Origin: Liolophura sinensis
Lineage: Eukaryota > Mollusca > Polyplacophora > Chitonida > Chitonidae
NCBI RefSeq assembly: GCF_032854445.1
Contig: NC_088299.1
Span: forward strand, 2,579,001-2,643,000
Direction: 5' to 3'
DNA: 64,000 nt
Shown here: positions 4,227 to 46,200 of the stretch, piece after piece
Numbering within the stretch: position 1 is the stretch's first letter
How the letters are laid out: every line of letters begins with the position of its first letter
Notes under the pieces: generated by a model
Databases searched by the model: none
What the model saw: the letters and a program-made list of their open reading frames with translations, nothing else
What the model was told of the DNA's origin: nothing
Translations under genes and position numbers: made by a program

Positions 4227-7200
4227 ATGGCGACTTCACCGCAGAGCGGACAGGCGACCGAACTGAAGAAAACAGTTAACTTTAAACAGTGCACGGCAAT
4301 TCTCATAGCCTTAACGGGACACATCGCCATCTTTATCCGTCCCTCAGACATTCTGGCGAACATCGGCTCCATCGGTGGCTTCTTCATATTTTTATTGGTG
4401 AGCGGCCTGACATGTTTACTCCTGGCCCTGTGTTTTGCCGAGGTCGGGACGATTTACCCGAAAGCCGGCGGTCCTTACGCCTTCGTGTTGATCGTGTTCG
4501 GTAGTCTGCCCGCCTTCATAATCATGTGGGGATACATATGCCTTATTGTGGGACCCTTCTGGGTTATCATGGCTCACACTGCCGTTCTATACCTGGTCAA
4601 ACCATTCTACCCAAACTGTGACCCCCCGGAGACCGTCCTCAAATTACTTACAGCCTGGACCCTGGGTAGGTATATGTACCACTATACATATTTCAGCCAA
4701 TGTCAATTGTCGAGTTCAAAGCTGTGTCGTTTAATAAAGCTAGCGATGTCCAACATCATTTACCTTGAATTACTTAGCCTTATTAACTCTTCAAAGCCCT
4801 GAGCCTGGGTTCTAAGATATGCATGATTCACGTCCCAGTCAGGTTCCGGTTTACAATGCTCCGAAGTTACTGATGCTGAAGTGCGTTCACTGGCCGGCGG
4901 GGTGAGTGAGTGAGTTAGTGAGTGCTTGAAGTTTCACGTCGTACTTAACAATTTTTCAGTCAAATGACGACGAAGGAGTCCTTAGAGCGCATGCAATGTG
5001 CCTCCTCGTTGCAGGATGGATTTCCACCGCTTTTTTTTTCATCTAGTGCTGCTTCACTGAGACGACTTACCGAAGGCAAGTAAGCTGCCCCGCCCGAGCC
5101 ATTATACTGATACGGGTGAACCAGTCGTTGCTCTATTCCCTTCATGCTGAACGCCAGGCGAGGATGTTACAACTTCCTCTTTTAAAGTCTTAGGTGTGAC
5201 TCGACCCAGGATTGATCCTGGATCTACCGCTCCTGACTGGCCGGCGGAAAATCCCCTAGCTGAGGAACGCGAACCGCATTGCCATTGCCATCATTTCCAG
5301 TCGAAAAAGTAGGTTTCTGAACAATTTGGTATCTATAGTCAGGGAAGGGAGAATACGAAGCCTACAGCTCAGTATCAACCTTGCTGGTAGGAACATGGGT
5401 TTTCATACTGATGTTATTTAAAGTTAAAAAAAAGCTAAATTGTGACGTAAGGTTCATCATACAGGCAACTGAAAACTATGCGTAAAAATACTTTCATTTT
5501 TTTTTTGATTTTTCTATGAGTGTTGAAAGGCATTCAAACATTTGAAAACTATGATGGGCTTTATGAGCCATACTGACGATCTATAGGAACTCTGACGTTA
5601 CATCACCTTTTTTTCCTGATGTTCATGAGAATGAAGGCATTTTTGGGAACATTATTTCAGCAATCTTTCACTCATGGGTAAAAAGACTCGTTCCAACATT
5701 AGGTGTCGTCAAACAGTTCAGAAAACTTCCTGTGACCTCTGACAGTATGGTCCACAAAGCCCACTTTAGAATTCAAATGTGTGAGCGCCTTTCACTCTTT
5801 TCACAAAAATCTGAAAAAAATAAATGAAAGCATATTTATATACAGTTTTAAGTGGTCTATTTAGTGATGCCTACTTCGATTGTTAGTGGTCTTGTCCTTT
5901 AATGAAAGATTCAAGCAACTCTATGAACAAGACATGCTATAAGCCGTAACACTAGTATGTAGTGGAACTGAAGAAGATTTTGTTGCCTTTGACGTTAATA
6001 CAGCAATGACCGGTTTTATTTAACTAAAAACAATTGATGATAAAATTCCATCAGTTAAATCTTTGAGAGGAAATAGTGGTATTTAGAGTAGTGAAATACC
6101 ATGTGGATATGTCCCAAAACACATTGAACGTCTAGTTCTTCAGTGAGACGTTTGAGTTTTAGTAAAAATCCACATGTAGCTAACGTATGGATTTTTTTGC
6201 AACTTTTTTGCAAATATGTTTTCCAAAATGACTCTACCTTTTACAGCTCCCTCGTGAAGAGGACAAGTACAAGTTTGGTGATACAGCTTCTTGACTCCGC
6301 AATAAAGCGAGCTTTGTCTGTGGATGCTGTATATTGGTGTGGTGTGAAGGTGCATATGGGCACCTTTCGATGAGATAAGATTGAATTGTTTCTTTGATTT
6401 GTGTTTTACGCCGTACTCAAGAATATTTCACTTATACGACGGCGGCCAGCATTATGGTGGGAGGAAACCAGAAAGTTTCCTCCCAGAAGGATTGTTGTTG
6501 TACAAAAGCATGATAGCAATAGTTCTACCAGACAAATGTAATATTGTTTTGAGCTTTGTTGGCGGGAACAATAACGTATTTCTCATCATTATTTAGGTCA
6601 TCAAGTCGACCTACATTTTGTAAGACGTTCACAACTTGCTTGGCTCTTGTGTGACCATTAGTATTTATAAGATGGCTTGCATACACAATCGTTTTCTTTA
6701 CAAATGCCAGAGACTGAAGGTTCTCCCTTGTCCTGTTTTACCCCTTTTTTTAGTCTCCAAGTGCCGAAAGGACAACTTCTTATTAGCTTTCATATTTATG
6801 TTTCCAGGCTCCCTATACCTCAAACATCTCACAGGTATATTTCGAAGGTAATCATTGATTACAATATTAAGATAACTCGACATGTTAACATGGATAGTAG
6901 GTAAAGTTTGACAATTTACAGTCACATTTGTATCTACAAGATGTGTACTCAGACATCACAAAATCTTTGCTTTCGCGTAAGACACTCAGTCTATAACGAA
7001 CGTCAGACTGCGCGAACAGCCTGACAAGCACCGTCATTTGATGTTACGTCAGGCTCTACAAAAACTGGTAGGATCCCTGCCTTACCTTTTGCATATTTAA
7101 CTAATTCTTTGAATCCGATTGGTTGCTGATTTATGTGCAGTAACCGGTTTAATATTTTGTCCTATTTAATAGATAAACTGTACAGGCCATAAATCAAGTT

Positions 7201-10200
7201 TTGAACCAGCTTAATCCATGGATGATATTTGTACACATAAAGTGGAATACGCAATCTCTGAAATCCGCTGGTTAAATTATATTATAGTTATATGTTATAG
7301 TTATTTCATGTCAGTTTTTCGTAATTTGCTCATATCTTGAAAAATAATGGAAGTGGCAGGTTACATTGAGCCATATTCATATCATATTGGCATTTAAACA
7401 ATTAAACCTCTGATCCCGGGATCACGAAGCTATCCTAGATTTAAGTCGAATTTTAAATTTTAATCATTTAAATTCAGTATATTCCTTTATTTTTGCTGAA
7501 ATTTGTCGTAGAATAACTTATCTAGAAATTACGTTGTCTTGCGATATTTTGAGCTTGTAACATCAGAAATAGCAATTATAAAATGATCTGGAATTTTGAC
7601 TTAAGCCCAAGATCGCTTCGTTATCCCTCGGACTGGGTCTGAATATACTTGAGTACACATGAATGAGATGCTGTATGATTATAAAAAGCAGGGTTAGTGG
7701 ACATACTCAAAATCTTAGATTTTAAACTAACTTTGTTGATATTAAATGTTTGAGAGGAACGGTACATAAATTGTATGTTAATCTGGACATTGGTACGCTT
7801 CAGTGGTGAAAGCATATTAAGTCTTGAGTATGTTCATGAAATGGCAGAAATTTGAAACACGATGTAGTGGTTAACGGTTTATTGGCTACGCTTCTCCATT
7901 CCTATCTTTAGTTCCATTGTCTTGTTCTTGAGCCCTAGACAAGACTGTTGTAATGAGCTGTCGCCATTTTCACCAGATCGCCTTGTTTTTGTGTCCCCGT
8001 CACGGTGGCTGTGATCAGGTATCTGCATTTTCACTGTGTCGTCTTGTCGTTTGCCTCAGCCTCGGTGGTTGTAATTGGTTGTCTGCATTTTCACTTTGTC
8101 GTCTTGTCTTTGTACTCCCGTGACGGAAGTTGTTTGTATTTTCACCTTTTTCATCTTGTCGTTGTGCTCCAGCCTCAGTAGGTTGTGATTAACTCTCTGT
8201 ACTTTCGCCTTATTTTTTTGTCTTTGTTCTCCAGTCACAGTGGTTAATATTCAGCTGTCTCCAAACTATTAGGTCCCCAATCCCTATCGTCTTGTCCTTG
8301 TTCTAAGGTCACGGTGGTTATGATCAACTGTCTCTACCCAAACTTATCGTCTTGGCTTTGCTCTCTGGTCACAGTGATTGTGATCATCCGCCTGTAGTTG
8401 TCCCTCCCATCGCCTTGTATTTGTGCTCTAGTTAGGGTGGTTATGATCAACTCTCTGTGCCCCCCCCCCCCCCCCCTACGCCCTATCGCCTTGTGTTTTG
8501 TCTCCAGTCATAGGGACTGTGATAACTGTCTTGTATTTATGCTGTATTTTGTGATTAGCTGTCTGCATTTTCACCTTGCCGTTTTGTTTTTGTACTGCCG
8601 TCACGGTGTTGTGACCATTTGTCTGTAATTTAACCCTGTCGTCTTGTCTTTGTGATCCCGTCACGATGGTTATGATCAACTGACTGTATTTTCGCCGTTA
8701 TATCGTTTTGTATTTGTTCTCCAGTCACGGTGGTTGTCATCAACATTCTGTATTTTCATCTTATCATCCTGTATTTGTTCTCCAGTTACGGTACTTGTGA
8801 TCAACTGTCTGTACTTTCGCCTTATTGTCTTGTCCCTCTTCTCCAGTCACGGTGGTTGTTGGCAATTGTCTGTATTTTTCATATTATCGTCCTGTCAATC
8901 TTCTCAAGTCACGGTGGTTGTGATCAACAGTCTGTATTTTCTTCTTGTCACCTTGTATTTGTTCTCCAGTGACGGTGGTTGTCATCAACAGTCTGTATTT
9001 TCATCTTATCACCCTGTATTTGTTCTCCAGTCACTGTGGTTGTGATCAACTGTCTGTACATGAAGTACATCACCCGTGTCCAAACGTTCCTGAGCGGAAC
9101 CAAGATGGTGGCCATGTTGATCTTGATCATCGTCGGTTTGATCCAGTTTGCACAAGGTCAGTGAATGATCAGTTTCAATGTTGATCCGAAATTATGACCG
9201 CATAACCTTTATTTTGGTAAATATATATAGGGGTCATGTCCGACATTCGTATACCATTCGTAGCCCGTAAGCGGCGTTCCAAGTCGATAATCGCAAGATC
9301 CATGTCCAAAACAACGTTTAACACTAGTTTCCAAAGACAAAGGTATGTAAGAAATTATACAAATAGGAGATAAAGCTGGTAACACACAAGAAAGAAGTGG
9401 TCATCAGTTTTCAATGATGCCCGGCAGACAGAGGATGTTCCAGGCATGAACTCCATATCAAAGTTCAAATCCGTAGTCCATGAATGAGTTCCAGGTCAAA
9501 TAACAATTAAACAAGGTATCTCAGTCGCGCTTTGATTGCAACTGTTCATAAAGGCATCATGCTGCCTTTACGGCCCCTATCCCCAGGTTAAGCGGTATTT
9601 GATACAGTTCAAAAAATGACGAGCGTTACAGACCTTAACCGAACATTCTAAGCAAATTATGATAATTAGAAGCTCGTCTATAGTAAATTTATGTTAGTAG
9701 TTGTATGGTAGAACGTTTCAGCGTCAATATATTATACCATCATATCCTTATGTTGTTCCTTGCAACTCCTTCAGAACTCATTGCCGCACACACACACCCC
9801 CATTGTCACACATCTCCTTGTCACAAGACCAATTGTCTCACACCGCATTGTCTCACACTGCATTGTCACACACCCAACTATCACACACTGCATTGTCTTA
9901 AATATCAATCATAGTCACACGTGTAATTGTCCCACACCTGACTCATACATTAAATTGTCTCGCACCTCAGTTTCTCGTGCCCACCCTTCATGCTTTATAC
10001 CTATGTTGCAAATATCATTTCAGTCAGTGTTGGCTACTGTAATATATAAGCCTAAACACTTCCTTATTGTGTACTGTATGCTTGACACCGATCGACCAAA
10101 CTATACTACACTGTTGCTCAAGTTGGAATGAAATATTTTTACCACTTTTATAAACTGACGGCCAAAAGAAACTTTACGACTCCGTGAGTTAAATTTAACC

Positions 10201-13200
10201 AGCCTTTGTAGCAAATTAATACCAAATTATTGTAGGAAAACATTGTACGAAGCATATGCCCATGTGCAACAATTGTCATATACGTCCACACGAATTTGTT
10301 GGTAATAAGTGGTATAAAAACTTTACACACAGTGTGCTGGACTTGCACACTGACCTAAAAACCACCAAAGTAATTTCTCGATTGACTCCAGAACAACGCG
10401 AGAGGGCCCTGGGTATGGTATCCATGGGAGCCACCCATGCCCACGTTGCAAGAACCTTCGGCTGCTCTCGTGTAACTGTGTCAAACTTCATGCAACGTTA
10501 CAGACAGACAGGGCAGACATCGGACAGGCCAAGAACAGGCAAGTCTAGGGTAACTACGCCCAGAGAAGACGGATACCTGCGCACCTTACACCTGTCGAAC
10601 CGCTTCCTGACAGTGACGTCATCGTCAATAAAAGCCTTAGGTCCAGGAGAATCATAGCTCACGGAATTAGGGCCTATCGACCATTCAGAGGGCAGTTGTT
10701 GACAGGTGGGCTCGAATTGTACGCCGTTGACAGCGACGTGATTAGCAACGTGTTGTTTTCATGGATGAAAGCCGCTTCTGCCTGTTCCGAGCCGATGGCA
10801 AACGTCGAAGAGGCAAACGAACGGCTGCATCATGCGTCCAGGAGGTGGGTACCGTTTGATGGCGGCAGCGTGATGGTGTGGGATGGGATTTGTGGAGAGG
10901 AACGGACACCACTTTTCATCACCTACGGTAACAGCTCAACGTCACGTGGATGAAATTCTACCTCCTGATTCAACAGCAGCCAGGTGGTGTCCTGTACCAA
11001 TATGACAACGCCAGACCCCATACAACTGGAGTTGTGCAGAACTTCCTGGATGCCAATGATGTCAACGTCTTGCCGTGGCCTGCACGTTTCCCCATATATG
11101 TCCCCCATAGAACACCTTTGGGATATCATGGGTCGTCGAGTAAGACAACGGCCACACCTTGCAACCAAGCAAAAAGAACTGGTGTTCGTTCTCCAAGATG
11201 AATGGCAACGAATCCCTAGTCATCTCATCAGACGACTGACTTTTTCTATGCGTCAGAGAGTTTTTGCATGCATTGAAGTAAGGGGTGGCCACACGTGATA
11301 TTGATAGGTTTTGATATTGACTAATTTTAGAAATAATCAACTTTCACTTGTTCACTTGTAAAATGATTTGAGGGCTGCTTGGTCCGTTCTTACTCGAGAC
11401 TTCAATATCTAAAGTCATTGGTCTTTTCAATATATTAAACTTCAGTCATCCTGTTTTTTGCTTTGGCAAAATAAATTGATTTGAACTCTTTGTAAAGTTT
11501 CTTTTGGTCGTCAGTTTAGATTGATTCTTATAGTATATGTTACATGTATTTATGACATCTGAGGTGTATATCACCACAATACTTGATTGTTCAGTCTCTT
11601 CAGAACTGCATACTCAGCCTGAACTAAAGACTGAGAGCACAATCATTACTGCCGAGTGCGGCCACCCCTGGAGGAAATCGGGGCCTCAAGACGTTGGGGG
11701 TACACTTTCCACAAGGTTGTTAATGATGTCAATGGGCGGGGCTTCCCACTCAGTCAAGAGCCTCAGCTAACTTTTGTTGATTTTGGAGCTGATTGTTCCT
11801 GCCATTGATGGCTCGGCCTAAGACATCCCAGGCATGCTTGATAGGGTTGATATCTTTGGAGGAAGAAGGCTTGAAGAAATTCTGTCACTGCAGCTGCCCT
11901 GTGCGGCCTAGCGTTGTCGTCTTGCAGTCATGATTTGTTTCCATAAACCCTTCTTGCGAGTGGAAGGCAGTGGTTTCCCAGAATGCCCACGCACACGATG
12001 GCGTTGACGTTTCCTTCCGGCATCACCAGCGGCGTTTTCCCTCCATCATTAATACCGGCCCATATTATCGTTGAAGTGCCACCATCTTGAGCCCCTCCCT
12101 GAATATAGTCATCTCTGAGGTTCTCACCACGTAATCGTCGAACCCTTTATCTTCGATCTACACGGTCAATGACGTAGTGGTTCTCGTCCGTAAAGACGAC
12201 ATGTTGCCAGTGCCCGGGCAGTTATCTTCTGTGCTCTCTAGCCCAGCGTATTGGAGCAAGTCTGTGTTGAGCACTTAGGCGTGAACATTTGGTCTTTCGT
12301 CTTGCTCGGTAACCATGTTGTGGCAATCTTCAGTTCACAGTTTGGCGGGAAACGTGGATTCCATAGTGCCTTCTCCACAAACGACGAAGACGGCTCGTTG
12401 GCATTTTCCGGTTTCTACTGCACATATTAAGCAATCGGCGATCATCTCGTCTGGTAGTGTGGTCGTGCTGGAGATTTTCGTGTCCTAAAAATAACCCATC
12501 TCTCGATGACGTTGGAGGATTTTATAGACCGCACCCTGTAATATGCCGACCAAATCGGTGACTTCGGCTTGTTTTACCTTCTCCGTTGGAGTACAGGCAC
12601 TCATTGGCGTATTGGCAATGCCGTTGGGCTCGGCATATCCTAGAAAACCTATGTGTCAGTTTTTGTTGTGAAGGTAACAGCCAATCGTGAAGAACGTGAG
12701 CTCCTTTCATACGGGATTTGCGCAAGGAAGAGAACAAAACATCAGACGTCTGGTCCTTTATAGCTCCCAGCAGAAGGCTTTGTTACATAATTCAAGATTT
12801 GCATGAATTTGTTTCACTCAGGTCGTGGGCACGCATTATAAAATCATTAACCGGCTCTAATATAATTACTGAGGCGCTCAGAGAGAAATAAATTTGAAGA
12901 TAGGGCCTGAAATATTTTTATTTTAAATTTATGAGCAGCAGTGTATATAAAATGTTGTCTTCCTTCTTTGATGGCTATTAGCCTGAGATTGTGTAAGGTA
13001 AATTTCACATGATCAGCATGCTTTTCCTCACCTGAGCTATTTATTTGACTGGTGGTTATTCCGTATTCAAAAATATTTCATTTATACTACGGCAGCCAGC
13101 GTTATAGTGGGAAGTTATCAGGCAGAGCCCGAGATAAACCCACGGGCGTCAACAGGTTGCTGGCAGAACTTATGTACTGCCAGAAAGAGAGAGCAGTATG

Positions 13201-19159: not shown

Positions 19160-19400
19160 ATTAGCACCTGATTTATTGCTGGACTGGTTGCCAGTAGATC
19201 TTCAGGACATTTGACAATACTGTTGGACCAACTGCAAGTAGATATTTTCGACATTTAAAAATACTGATTCAACGTTAACCAGAATATCACAATTTAAACA
19301 GCTTCTTTCCGATTAATTGCTTTACCATTTGTCAATAGATCTCCATGACATCATATTTAGGGCTACTTCTTGACCGTTTGCTAGTAGATATTCAAGGCAT
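19160..19400. repeat. Degenerate minisatellite downstream of SLC7 copy B
   Basis: Diverged units with TTGCCAGTAGATCTTCAGG and GACATTTGAC-like cores, matching the array at 1960-2215 in position and sequence. Confidence 0.55.
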
Positions 19401-43200: not shown

Positions 43201-46200
43201 CAAGGATTGATCCTGGATCTACCGGTCCCGAAGCGGACGAATGCTTGCAGGAAGAACCCTGACATAATAGGTCAGGTGCCTTCACTGCTTGCAAGGAGAA
43301 CCCTGACATTAAAGGTCAGAGGCTCTGATTGCTTGCAGGAGAACCCTAACATTATGGATCAGGGGCCCTGATTGTTTGCACAAAGAACCCTGACATAACC
43401 CTGATTGCTTCCAGGACAAACCATGACATTTAATGAATGATTATACCTTATGTCACTTCAACAATATTACAGCCATATATTGTTGCCACAATGACATTAA
43501 AGCTTTACCTCAAATCTATACTGTCTAGAAGGGACGTCCATTCCAGCAATGTCTGACAGGTTAACGAACTGGCCATTGTGATGATCCTTGAGGAAGCTGA
43601 GTACAGGTATGACCCCCTCCGGGTGAATCAGTATCTCCAGCTCCCCCAGTGCAACCTGGGCCTTCTGGACGTACTTAGGCAGACATTCAGCCACGTATGC
43701 CCCAAAGTCTTGTTGGGTTGTCCTCCACAACTCACTATCAGGGCGACGCACTGTGGCTTTAGATGGACAGATGAAAAATTGTATTTTTCACAATTTCCGT
43801 GAAATTTAAGTCAAGAAAATATATCTGCACACAATTATTTATATTAAATGCTCACAGGTTAACTCACAATGCTAGATGTGGCGGTCTACAACAGTATGGA
43901 AACATTTCAACAATTTTTACGTGTACACGTGTCATAATAATGACAATAAATATCAAGGTACACTACAGTACAGACCACATTAAAAAGAAAGTTATCAGCT
44001 TTTATCTATCACGTATCTATCAGCTGTCTCCCGCTTGTCTCTTGGATATCTCTCGCGTTGTTACTGTATTTCTTTCCCCCTCCTCAGTTAGCCTAATCAG
44101 TTAGACTGTTTACTGCCATCGGGGCTGTCTGAGATGTCCACAGTCCCTGTAAGCCAAACACGCTGGCTACCGCAGATCTATCGCAAGTCTATCACTGGTA
44201 GATTAACAGCCTTTCCGTACCTATTTTGTATTCTGTAAATGTGTAGGGGATACCTTTCAACCTCAAAACTCTTCCAGATATGGAAATATCCAAACCATCT
44301 TTGTGATTACCTAACTAACAATGTATGCTTTGCAACTCCACATAAATAAAAAATCCCATACTCATCTAAACTTTTAAAAAAAAGTAAAGGTTTCTCAAAG
44401 ACAAAAGTGTATCTTGGTTATGGCTGTTGAAATTGGTCTTATGCATTCCAAACATCTGTCTTCAGAACAGTTGTACATTTTAGATGAAAGTTGTTTGGAT
44501 ATGAAATGCTTGTATATGTTTTCAGGTTTACAGATGGTTACTTATATCCCTGGTCTAGGAGACATCATGTTGTCTTTCTGTAAACGACTGTAAATGACTT
44601 TCACAACGACCTATAAATATACATGTTCTCTGTATGATGTATGCTTTGTAGTTTCACGCAATAAATAAATCCGATAAAATAAACTCTTGGAAATGCCAGG
44701 TCCATCAAAGAAAAAACTGTATGTTGGTTAATATTGCCGTCTGACTTAGCGCACTGAAAAAACTATGTACAGATATCAAGTGCTTCTATATATTATCCAA
44801 AAGTCTTCCCGCAACCTGCATATGATTATGGTTTCCACAAACATCATCCATGCACAGGAGACATCACTCGTACAGTTCAGTTTTTTTAGTCATACAATGT
44901 AATTTATTTAAACACTCACGTTTACTTTCCTCAGGCGTGGGAGACTCAGTGGACTGCTTTCGGAAGAGTACTGCTGTGGGCCTGGTGTGTCTTAACACTG
45001 GCATGCAGAAATTAAAAGCCATGATGATATGATGTCATTTAATAAAAATACAATTTTTTTTGTTATTTTAATAACAGACATTATTCAAGTTACTTGATAT
45101 ATCTTGACCTACTAAACTCAATTCTGTAGCTAATTTTGATTGTCATCATTTTAAAAGCAGCATTATTTCAGTCCAAGAAAATTTAAGTATGAGAGCCTTG
45201 ACAGGTCTTGGCCTAATAGCCAGTTTTTGATCCGGCTGGGTATTCCACAAAAATGGTTACAGATCGAATGCTATCGATTTTCTCTAATCAACAGTGTATA
45301 ATATACGAGGCTTGACTCCGTATTTACCAAGTTATCGTATTTCTATGGCACATATCAGACATCTCTGCTCGATTCCTGACTTTTCTAAGATGGCAGTTGA
45401 TGGATAACATAAAATTTTGTTTAAAATCCAGTAACAGACTATAGCATTGTTTTGTGGTATAAATGAAAAACCTGGCTCAACTTGATTACCATATCTTGGG
45501 ATTCATGTTAATAATGCACGATTTTAAACACCTCGATGCTTTTCTTTTCACTTCGACATTTAAAATCGTGCATTTAACACTTAACTGTAGTTCAATTAAA
45601 CCAAACATCAAATGCCAAATATTTCCTGCTTGTTCGTTAAAATAACTTTGTGCAGTCATGAGTGTCGGGTGTACCAAAAATCTCAGAACCATACTCCAAA
45701 AGATACGAAATCAACCTAACAAGGCAGGAACATGCAACCAGTTTTAAATCTGATTTCAGTTTAGCGATGGTTTCACCAGTCATCATGGTTGTAGAATAGA
45801 AAGAACAATTTGCCTAGTCAGTCAAGCAAGAAGAGTCAACACTAAAGGTTTCAGTGAAGGCTTGTGGTTATTGTCTGCACAGTTGTCTCATTATCCAGGT
45901 TTTCTGCGCTTGGTCTCAGTAATAATCTGGATTTTGGATGCAACCCATACATCGTTGCTGCACACCACGATTTCAAAAAGAGGAAAGTCATCACTTGATC
46001 AGTTTTTTTTACCTAGACTGAAATAGATTTAAATGTGTATGAGTGATTGAAAGGATGCTTTTCTCCTCAGTCCACACAAGAAATCGACGTGTGCAGCTGT
46101 TTTAGAGTGGAATTAAATTCTTACTTCGTTCCGCGGAATTAACCAACTGGATTTTTCAGCTCAAACAGTCAAGGATTAAACGTTGATAGGTAAATTGTTG

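Follow-up and report, generated by a model that had tools for sequence, protein, structure and literature searches.

The window analysed here is a stretch of 64 kb (C5:2579001-2643000) in the 609-Mb genome of the chiton Liolophura sinensis, and positions given without a locus name refer to it. A gene that starts at 4227 and extends through 9156 and beyond encodes, by sequence similarity, an SLC7-type amino acid transporter. Its predicted product matches the Pfam family AA_permease_2 and, in a phmmer search of the PDB, 17 of the 24 matched sequences were named LAT, y+LAT, b(0,+)AT, xCT or Asc (E values from 1.5e-34 to 3.7e-25). We call this gene copy B; about 18 kb upstream of it there is a second copy, A, whose exon 2 is at C5:2570300-2570425. 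All features listed for copy B are on the + strand. Exon 1 (4227..4665), recognised by its open frame and by homology to SLC7 proteins and to paralogues A, C, D and E, measures 439 bp from the ATG and ends in phase 1, and the donor GTAGGT follows directly after 4665. Intron 1 (4666..9030) is a phase 1 intron of 4365 bp, compared with 1066 bp in copy A, and its donor and acceptor positions are homologous to those of copy A and paralogue C. The acceptor AG (9029..9030) is predicted from the homology of exon 2 to paralogues A, C, D and E. Exon 2 itself (9031..9156) is 126 bp long, is 97% identical to that of copy A and codes for (V)TVVVINCLYMKYITRVQTFLSGTKMV...

There were 26 exon matches to SLC7 proteins; junctions were examined in A to E, and L022-L024 were covered by TRF together with one exon of L023. 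In paralogue C (C5:17985501-17987200), exon 2 agrees in position and phase and is preceded by an ordinary acceptor. In the gene tree, paralogues D and E group together (support 81/78) and C has no firm placement. Other features of the neighbourhood are transposase-like frame fragments in intron 2 of copy B (10220-11300), which we take to resemble a Tc1/mariner-type transposase, and an array of about six units of 42-43 bp at 1950-2198, 3' of copy A, one short stretch of which matches 19168-19256 behind copy B.

A minisatellite made of the exon 2 acceptor junction

The end of intron 1 in copy B is occupied by a minisatellite (7977..9030, + strand) that was delimited by profile search, alignment and TRF, and that comprises 16 upstream units of about 61 bp and the intron half of the true-junction unit. 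In the alignment, each unit joins about 32 nt of intron end (pyrimidine tract and CAG) to about 29 nt of exon 2 start. The array is thus derived from the 3' splice junction of exon 2 itself, as the preliminary description of this DNA had claimed, and the count of about 16 units running up to the exon at 9031-9156 was also right. A profile built from the junction found 17 units in the 64-kb window at E<=0.01, all on the + strand between 7977 and 9058 and ending with the true junction; the rest of the window gave no match at this threshold. A smaller search target adds two weaker pieces, at 7916 and 8549, which we excluded from the alignment and from all counts. Some copy B units match the profile only partly, as at 8098-8133. 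TRF assigned the stretch 8549-9058 a period of 61 bp, with 8.3 copies and 76% matches, and placed a related array at 8027-8232. A run of 17 C (8460-8476) lies between two degenerate units. The same intron of copy A, proposed earlier as a comparison, contains the array as well, with 8 upstream units and the junction; one of the 8 is partial (L009:6785) and was left out of the unit alignment.

A chance likeness, or an accidental resemblance of a dispersed repeat to the start of exon 2, was the refuting outcome considered at the outset, and the genome is indeed rich in tandem arrays. Searches of the genome with the proximal, the distal and the copy A parts of the array nevertheless matched the A and B arrays only (9, 5 and 7 matches, which are lower bounds), and no dispersed or mobile copy of the unit was among the matches found. 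Moreover, exon codons and intron tail are in register in each unit, and other sequences show the same design at other junctions (see below). We therefore give such a coincidence hardly any probability.

The similarity of the units to the true junction is uneven. In copy B, units -1 to -4 are 87, 82, 73 and 92% identical to it and the 12 distal units 61-76%; the earlier statement that the nearest three units are almost identical was thus too strong. Identity rises toward the exon over the 16 units of copy B (rho 0.67, p 0.005), so that the decay away from the exon described earlier holds there, but it does not carry over to copy A, where the gradient is not significant (rho 0.32, p 0.48, 7 units). 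Nor does every unit have an acceptor, as had been supposed: an AG stands at the aligned position in 10 of the 16 copy B decoys and in 7 of the 8 copy A units, the partial unit at L009:6785 being the one without it. Among the 12 distal units of copy B the AG persists in 6; averaged over every pair of adjacent columns, the corresponding figure is 7.3 of 12. Retention of the distal AG is therefore no better than that of other column pairs, and we see no sign of the decoys being kept. The high retention in copy A could reflect either youth or constraint.

Origin of the array and likely exchange between the two copies

Paralogue C has no array, the A/B profile also being blank there, and it has the exon and the intron position; exon 2 is therefore older than the array. 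This agrees with the part of the preliminary description that made the exon the ancestral source. The further idea that the array grew outward from the exon finds less agreement, since three proximal units are common to A and B, copy A shows no significant gradient, and the codon ACT of exon 2 (9033-9035) is absent from every aligned unit. This last observation leaves ongoing copying from the present exon edge unsupported.

The three units of copy A closest to the exon pair one to one with three units of copy B, with 98, 100 and 89% identity. Such sharing suggests that the array probably predates the A/B duplication. It could also be explained by exchange between A and B and is therefore no proof of that age; the array is probably either older than the duplication or was copied between the genes. 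The exon-proximal part in copy B (8782..8942, +) is identical to L009:7112-7272 of copy A at 160 of 161 positions, and A/B similarity falls sharply, to a weak level, upstream of L009:7112. The genes themselves have diverged. Synonymous divergence is 0.32 in exon 1 and 0.076 in exon 2, with 0.08-0.14 over exons 2-4 and 0.27-0.35 over exons 1 and 5-7. When the identity of 8782-8942 was set against these exons, Fisher p values were 1.7e-11 for exon 1, 0.0008 for exons 2-4 and 0.058 for exon 2 alone. The simplest reading of such identity between diverged genes is a recent exchange, and it is likely that A and B recently exchanged the proximal end of the array. Given the lower divergence of exons 2-4 than of exons 1 and 5-7, the exchanged region may be wider. 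Copy B has in addition an extra unit of 61 bp (8943..9003, +), which adjoins the exon and lacks a counterpart in A, its placement within the repeat being ambiguous. Copy number therefore differs between the gene copies (8+1 in A, 16+1 in B) with the proximal units in common, one haplotype having been compared.

Purifying selection on three proximal decoys, in place of conversion or exchange, could also be invoked for this identity, and we note that synonymous divergence is lower in exons 2-4 too, so that low divergence extends past the array. Selection on splice signals, however, would not preserve all the bases. What is seen is identity that is uniform across all unit positions, beyond the splice signals, and that drops abruptly upstream of L009:7112. 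We consider selection on the proximal decoys highly unlikely.

Decoy acceptors and the reading frame

We then asked how the true acceptor compares with the other AGs of intron 1. The score was based on generic metazoan frequencies, not on a trained model, and served for ranking alone. On this simple scale 8 other intron AGs (of 51) in copy A and 21 (of 216) in copy B score at least as high as the true acceptor, and 13 of these 21 lie inside the array, in line with the earlier proposal of decoy acceptors in a row. Branch-site matches were to a loose motif and were kept out of the argument.

Use of the unit acceptors would add 61, 122, 184, 245 ... nt to the messenger, which shifts the frame or, where the addition is a multiple of three, introduces a stop. 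This bears out the expectation that upstream units shift or break the frame. Indeed, in neither A nor B is any unit acceptor both in frame and open, so that a correct protein requires the last acceptor. The sole in-frame and open AG in the array is an alternative acceptor 39 nt upstream of the true one (8990..8991, +), which has a weak pyrimidine tract and is also found in A. A few out-of-frame acceptors, at 8930 and 8969 in copy B and at 6980, 7064, 7070, 7115 and 7238 in copy A (L009), give a reading without stops as far as the end of exon 2. Recursive splicing was considered as well and rejected: in the copy B array, AG/GT occurs only at the isolated sites 8018, 8181, 8272 and 8307, and AG/GTAAGT at none.

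Further junction arrays at acceptors and donors

Among the tandem arrays of the other genes examined, we found three more that are built from a splice junction, in paralogues D and E and in a kringle-kinase gene. Paralogue D (C5:18060301-18067900, minus strand) carries 78 acceptor-type units of 37 bp, including the true one, which run into exon 2; each consists of 9 nt of intron and 28 nt of exon, and 71 of the 78, including the true site, have the AG. There is no significant gradient toward the exon (rho -0.19, p 0.10). Another array, of a 41-bp unit present about 56 times, occupies the same intron as the D array (reverse complement 1894-4217 of L020/L063, C5:18057301-18067900, minus strand), and no derivation from an exon is apparent for it.

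Paralogue E (C5:18041501-18047500, minus strand) shows the mirror arrangement. Here the end of exon 3 and its donor (CTG/GTAAGTGATG, the slash marking the boundary) are repeated in donor-type units of 34 bp that extend over 3.5 kb; they number 103 if the true one and a weak last unit (18/34 matches) are counted. A GT is present in 92 of the 103 and GTAAGT in 61, the true site included, and the gradient is weak (rho -0.22 with distance, p 0.025). In the kringle-kinase gene (C7, L048 and L065), the end of a kringle exon (WDYCDIPRC) and its donor form 21 donor-type units of 45 bp, including the true one, of which 18, again counting the true one, have the GT. That kringle exon (L048 and L065, reverse complement, about 1500-1540) is read in two frames, matching positions 1-57 and 61-79 of the kringle profile, which would correspond to a frameshift, an assembly error or an unusual exon.

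When the D, E and kinase arrays were shuffled, twenty times each, at most 1 unit was recovered. D lacks the donor array of E and E lacks the acceptor array of D, the A/B unit profile has no match in C, D, E or the kinase gene, and unit length and register differ among the A/B, D, E and kinase arrays. Surely separate junctions are three: the E donor, the kinase donor and the exon 2 acceptor, for which A/B and D are counted together. Each of the arrays adjoins one intact boundary and its exon, and extends away from that exon.

These genes also bear on the suggestion that part of the array is translated in isoforms spliced to upstream units. In paralogue D, 22 of 70 decoys are in frame and 9 of these are open into exon 2, which would add 111 to 1110 nt; in A and B, the AG at -39 and the out-of-frame acceptors without a stop in exon 2 point the same way. 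Against this, translation from the unit acceptors of A and B fails for want of any that is both in frame and open, and in paralogue E and the kinase gene a stop follows immediately past the true donor. The added residues would moreover sit, presumably, inside the membrane core of the SLC7 fold. Translated-array isoforms, one of the two outcomes envisaged in the preliminary description, thus appear very improbable, the weak AG at -39 being the one site of the A/B array that would allow them in frame.

How common the arrays are

A junction array is present in 4 of the 5 examined members of the SLC7 subgroup (A, B, D and E, not C). TRF was run on 44 loci, namely L015-L028 (SLC7 paralogues and haemocyanin) and L031-L060 (30 of the 138 kinase matches). 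For the kinase loci, the sequence around the arrays was read in L042, L045, L047, L048 and L060 and the rest were judged from TRF rows; by this partial inspection, 1 of the 30 (L048, to which the upstream part was added) has a recognised junction array. From TRF rows alone, none was recognised at 10 SLC6 loci (of 109 matches). Arrays far from visible exons could not be classed, and these rates are therefore rough and are lower bounds. Three arrays were set aside: a 67-bp array in intron 1 of the SLC7 gene of L023, which lies off the junction with exon 2 further on; a 44-bp array near an exon (window 43497-43787), which by eye is not junction-derived; and a 79-bp array in L060, which ends about 100 bp before the exon and does not contain its junction.

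Genome-wide, three GGTAAGT motifs in tandem spacing gave 1943 matches, compared with 2785 for the reversed control, hence no enrichment. Triple CAGGTAAGT gave 267 matches against 162; a single array can yield dozens of matches (C1:93392582-93394463) and the places listed are the first ones alone, so that this excess is not decisive. Arrays with CAGGTAAGT units at C1:93392582-93394463, C3:23271050-23271982, C1:2202310-2202543 and other places are candidate donor-type junction arrays. We make no claim of enrichment at splice sites, tandem arrays being simply abundant in this genome.

Two other kinds of repetition were noticed in this assembly. Seven copies of COX1, spaced about 15.5 kb apart, are present on C99 and one more on C632, with TGA read through, which looks like a mitochondrial genome assembled as a concatemer. 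On C8, eight haemocyanin beta-sandwich domains stand in a row and match haemocyanins in the PDB, including KLH1; the family is a molluscan one, in keeping with the host.

Discussion

The arrays have a close precedent in the 'mirages' of amphioxus. According to the available passages of PMC3087553, these are tandem repeats that span an intron/exon boundary, at 5' or 3' splice sites. Mirages, first described by Canestro et al. in 2002 as stated there and in the available text of PMC3902484, occur in amphioxus or lancelet genes for Adh3, the globins BflGb6 and BflGb9, troponin C and PGBD5 (both sources). In BflGb6, the repeat consists of the end of the intron and the start of exon 2; one haplotype has 6 copies of it and another has 3, and RT-PCR pointed to normal splicing, according to the passages of PMC3087553 that treat this gene. 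Published mirages are reported there and in those of PMC3902484 not to disturb splicing.

The likeness to our arrays is close. In both animals a boundary-spanning unit adjoins one intact exon, and many but not all repeats keep the AG or GT; BflGb6 has exactly the form of A/B, the end of the intron with the start of exon 2. Copy number varies between haplotypes there and between gene copies here. The differences are that the host is a mollusc and not a cephalochordate, which we treat as a matter of the known range of mirages and not as a defining feature, that the arrays reach 78 and 103 units as opposed to 6 and 3 in BflGb6, and that two gene copies in tandem both have the acceptor array and show traces of mutual exchange. 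Moreover, RT-PCR was performed in amphioxus, whereas the molluscan arrays are known from sequence alone.

Two other systems also resemble ours. Turri et al. (1995) reportedly described, in the human gene IFI6 (6-16), a minisatellite with repeated splice donor sites. It too lies at an exon edge and offers several splice sites, but its donor units are short, reportedly 12 bp, and it concerns one human gene. Reed and Maniatis (1986) are said to have duplicated 3' splice sites experimentally for the study of site choice. In those constructs, as here, similar acceptors in a row compete for one donor; they were built, whereas the molluscan arrays are natural and hold as many as about 70 acceptors. 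In the open-access literature, the matches listed included no mirage from any animal other than cephalochordates, and the available parts of PMC4039745 and PMC3862624 describe no junction arrays. What is new here is the presence of mirage-type arrays in a molluscan genome, in several genes of two gene families, and at a much greater length in two of them.

We consider it probable that the array is a junction-spanning minisatellite of the amphioxus mirage type, tolerated since splicing uses the exon-proximal copy. The scenario would be as follows. First, a chance tandem duplication across a splice junction would start the array, and unequal exchange, conversion or slippage would make it grow. 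Such a duplication would be survivable only if the exon-adjacent copy is the one spliced; the remaining copies would then become intron, free to multiply and to decay, and most of them, if used, would give frameshifts or stops. Survivorship of this kind would account for the fact that every array, whether at an acceptor or at a donor, leads away from an exon that is intact. Second, the true site may be chosen as the partner of the other end of the exon, by exon definition, and may also be marked by the sequence of the exon body, which lies behind the last copy alone. Exon definition favours, where introns are long, the splice sites nearest across the exon, as stated in the available text of PMC9225289. 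Section 9 of that text adds that competing 3' sites generally favour the upstream one and that exon definition reduces this preference (PMC9225289). Proximity alone may therefore not explain the choice of the last acceptor. Two observations count against this scenario: the true acceptor scores below several decoys, and the gradient that outward growth would produce is not significant in A and D and is weak in E.

One must also consider that the array might be a selected regulatory device, in which decoys slow or divert splicing and unproductive splicing sets the transcript level. Most decoys would be unproductive, four of the five SLC7 subgroup members have arrays, and copy A keeps the AG in 7 of 8 units, all of which would suit such a device. 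However, the AG has been lost from 6 of the 12 distal units of copy B, with a retention no better than that of other column pairs, and A/B identity is spread uniformly over the unit and not concentrated on splice signals. Moreover, paralogue C does without an array and the kringle-kinase gene has one, so that the feature is not specific to this transporter. On balance, regulation by decoys seems improbable, and we retain the tolerated mirage as the preferred explanation.

A bolder extension would be that splice junctions are preferred seeds for minisatellites in this molluscan lineage and not just tolerated ones, transcription or splicing (for example through R-loops or strand breaks at splice signals) promoting local tandem duplication, and that many genes are affected while splicing stays accurate by virtue of robust exon definition. 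The triple GGTAAGT result speaks against preferred seeding, and we regard the proposal as unlikely. If it were true, many genes would have an exon flanked by tens to a hundred decoy splice sites.

The amphioxus cases had suggested a local curiosity. Arrays at three or more separate junctions, in two gene families, suggest instead that such structures arise repeatedly where minisatellites abound. In each array, as many as about 90 similar sites, one of them correct, compete in a natural experiment, and RNA-seq of this species could therefore measure directly how far position relative to the exon governs splice-site choice. Finally, the arrays provide material from which new introns and exons could form, as has been proposed for the amphioxus globins in the available passages of PMC3087553.
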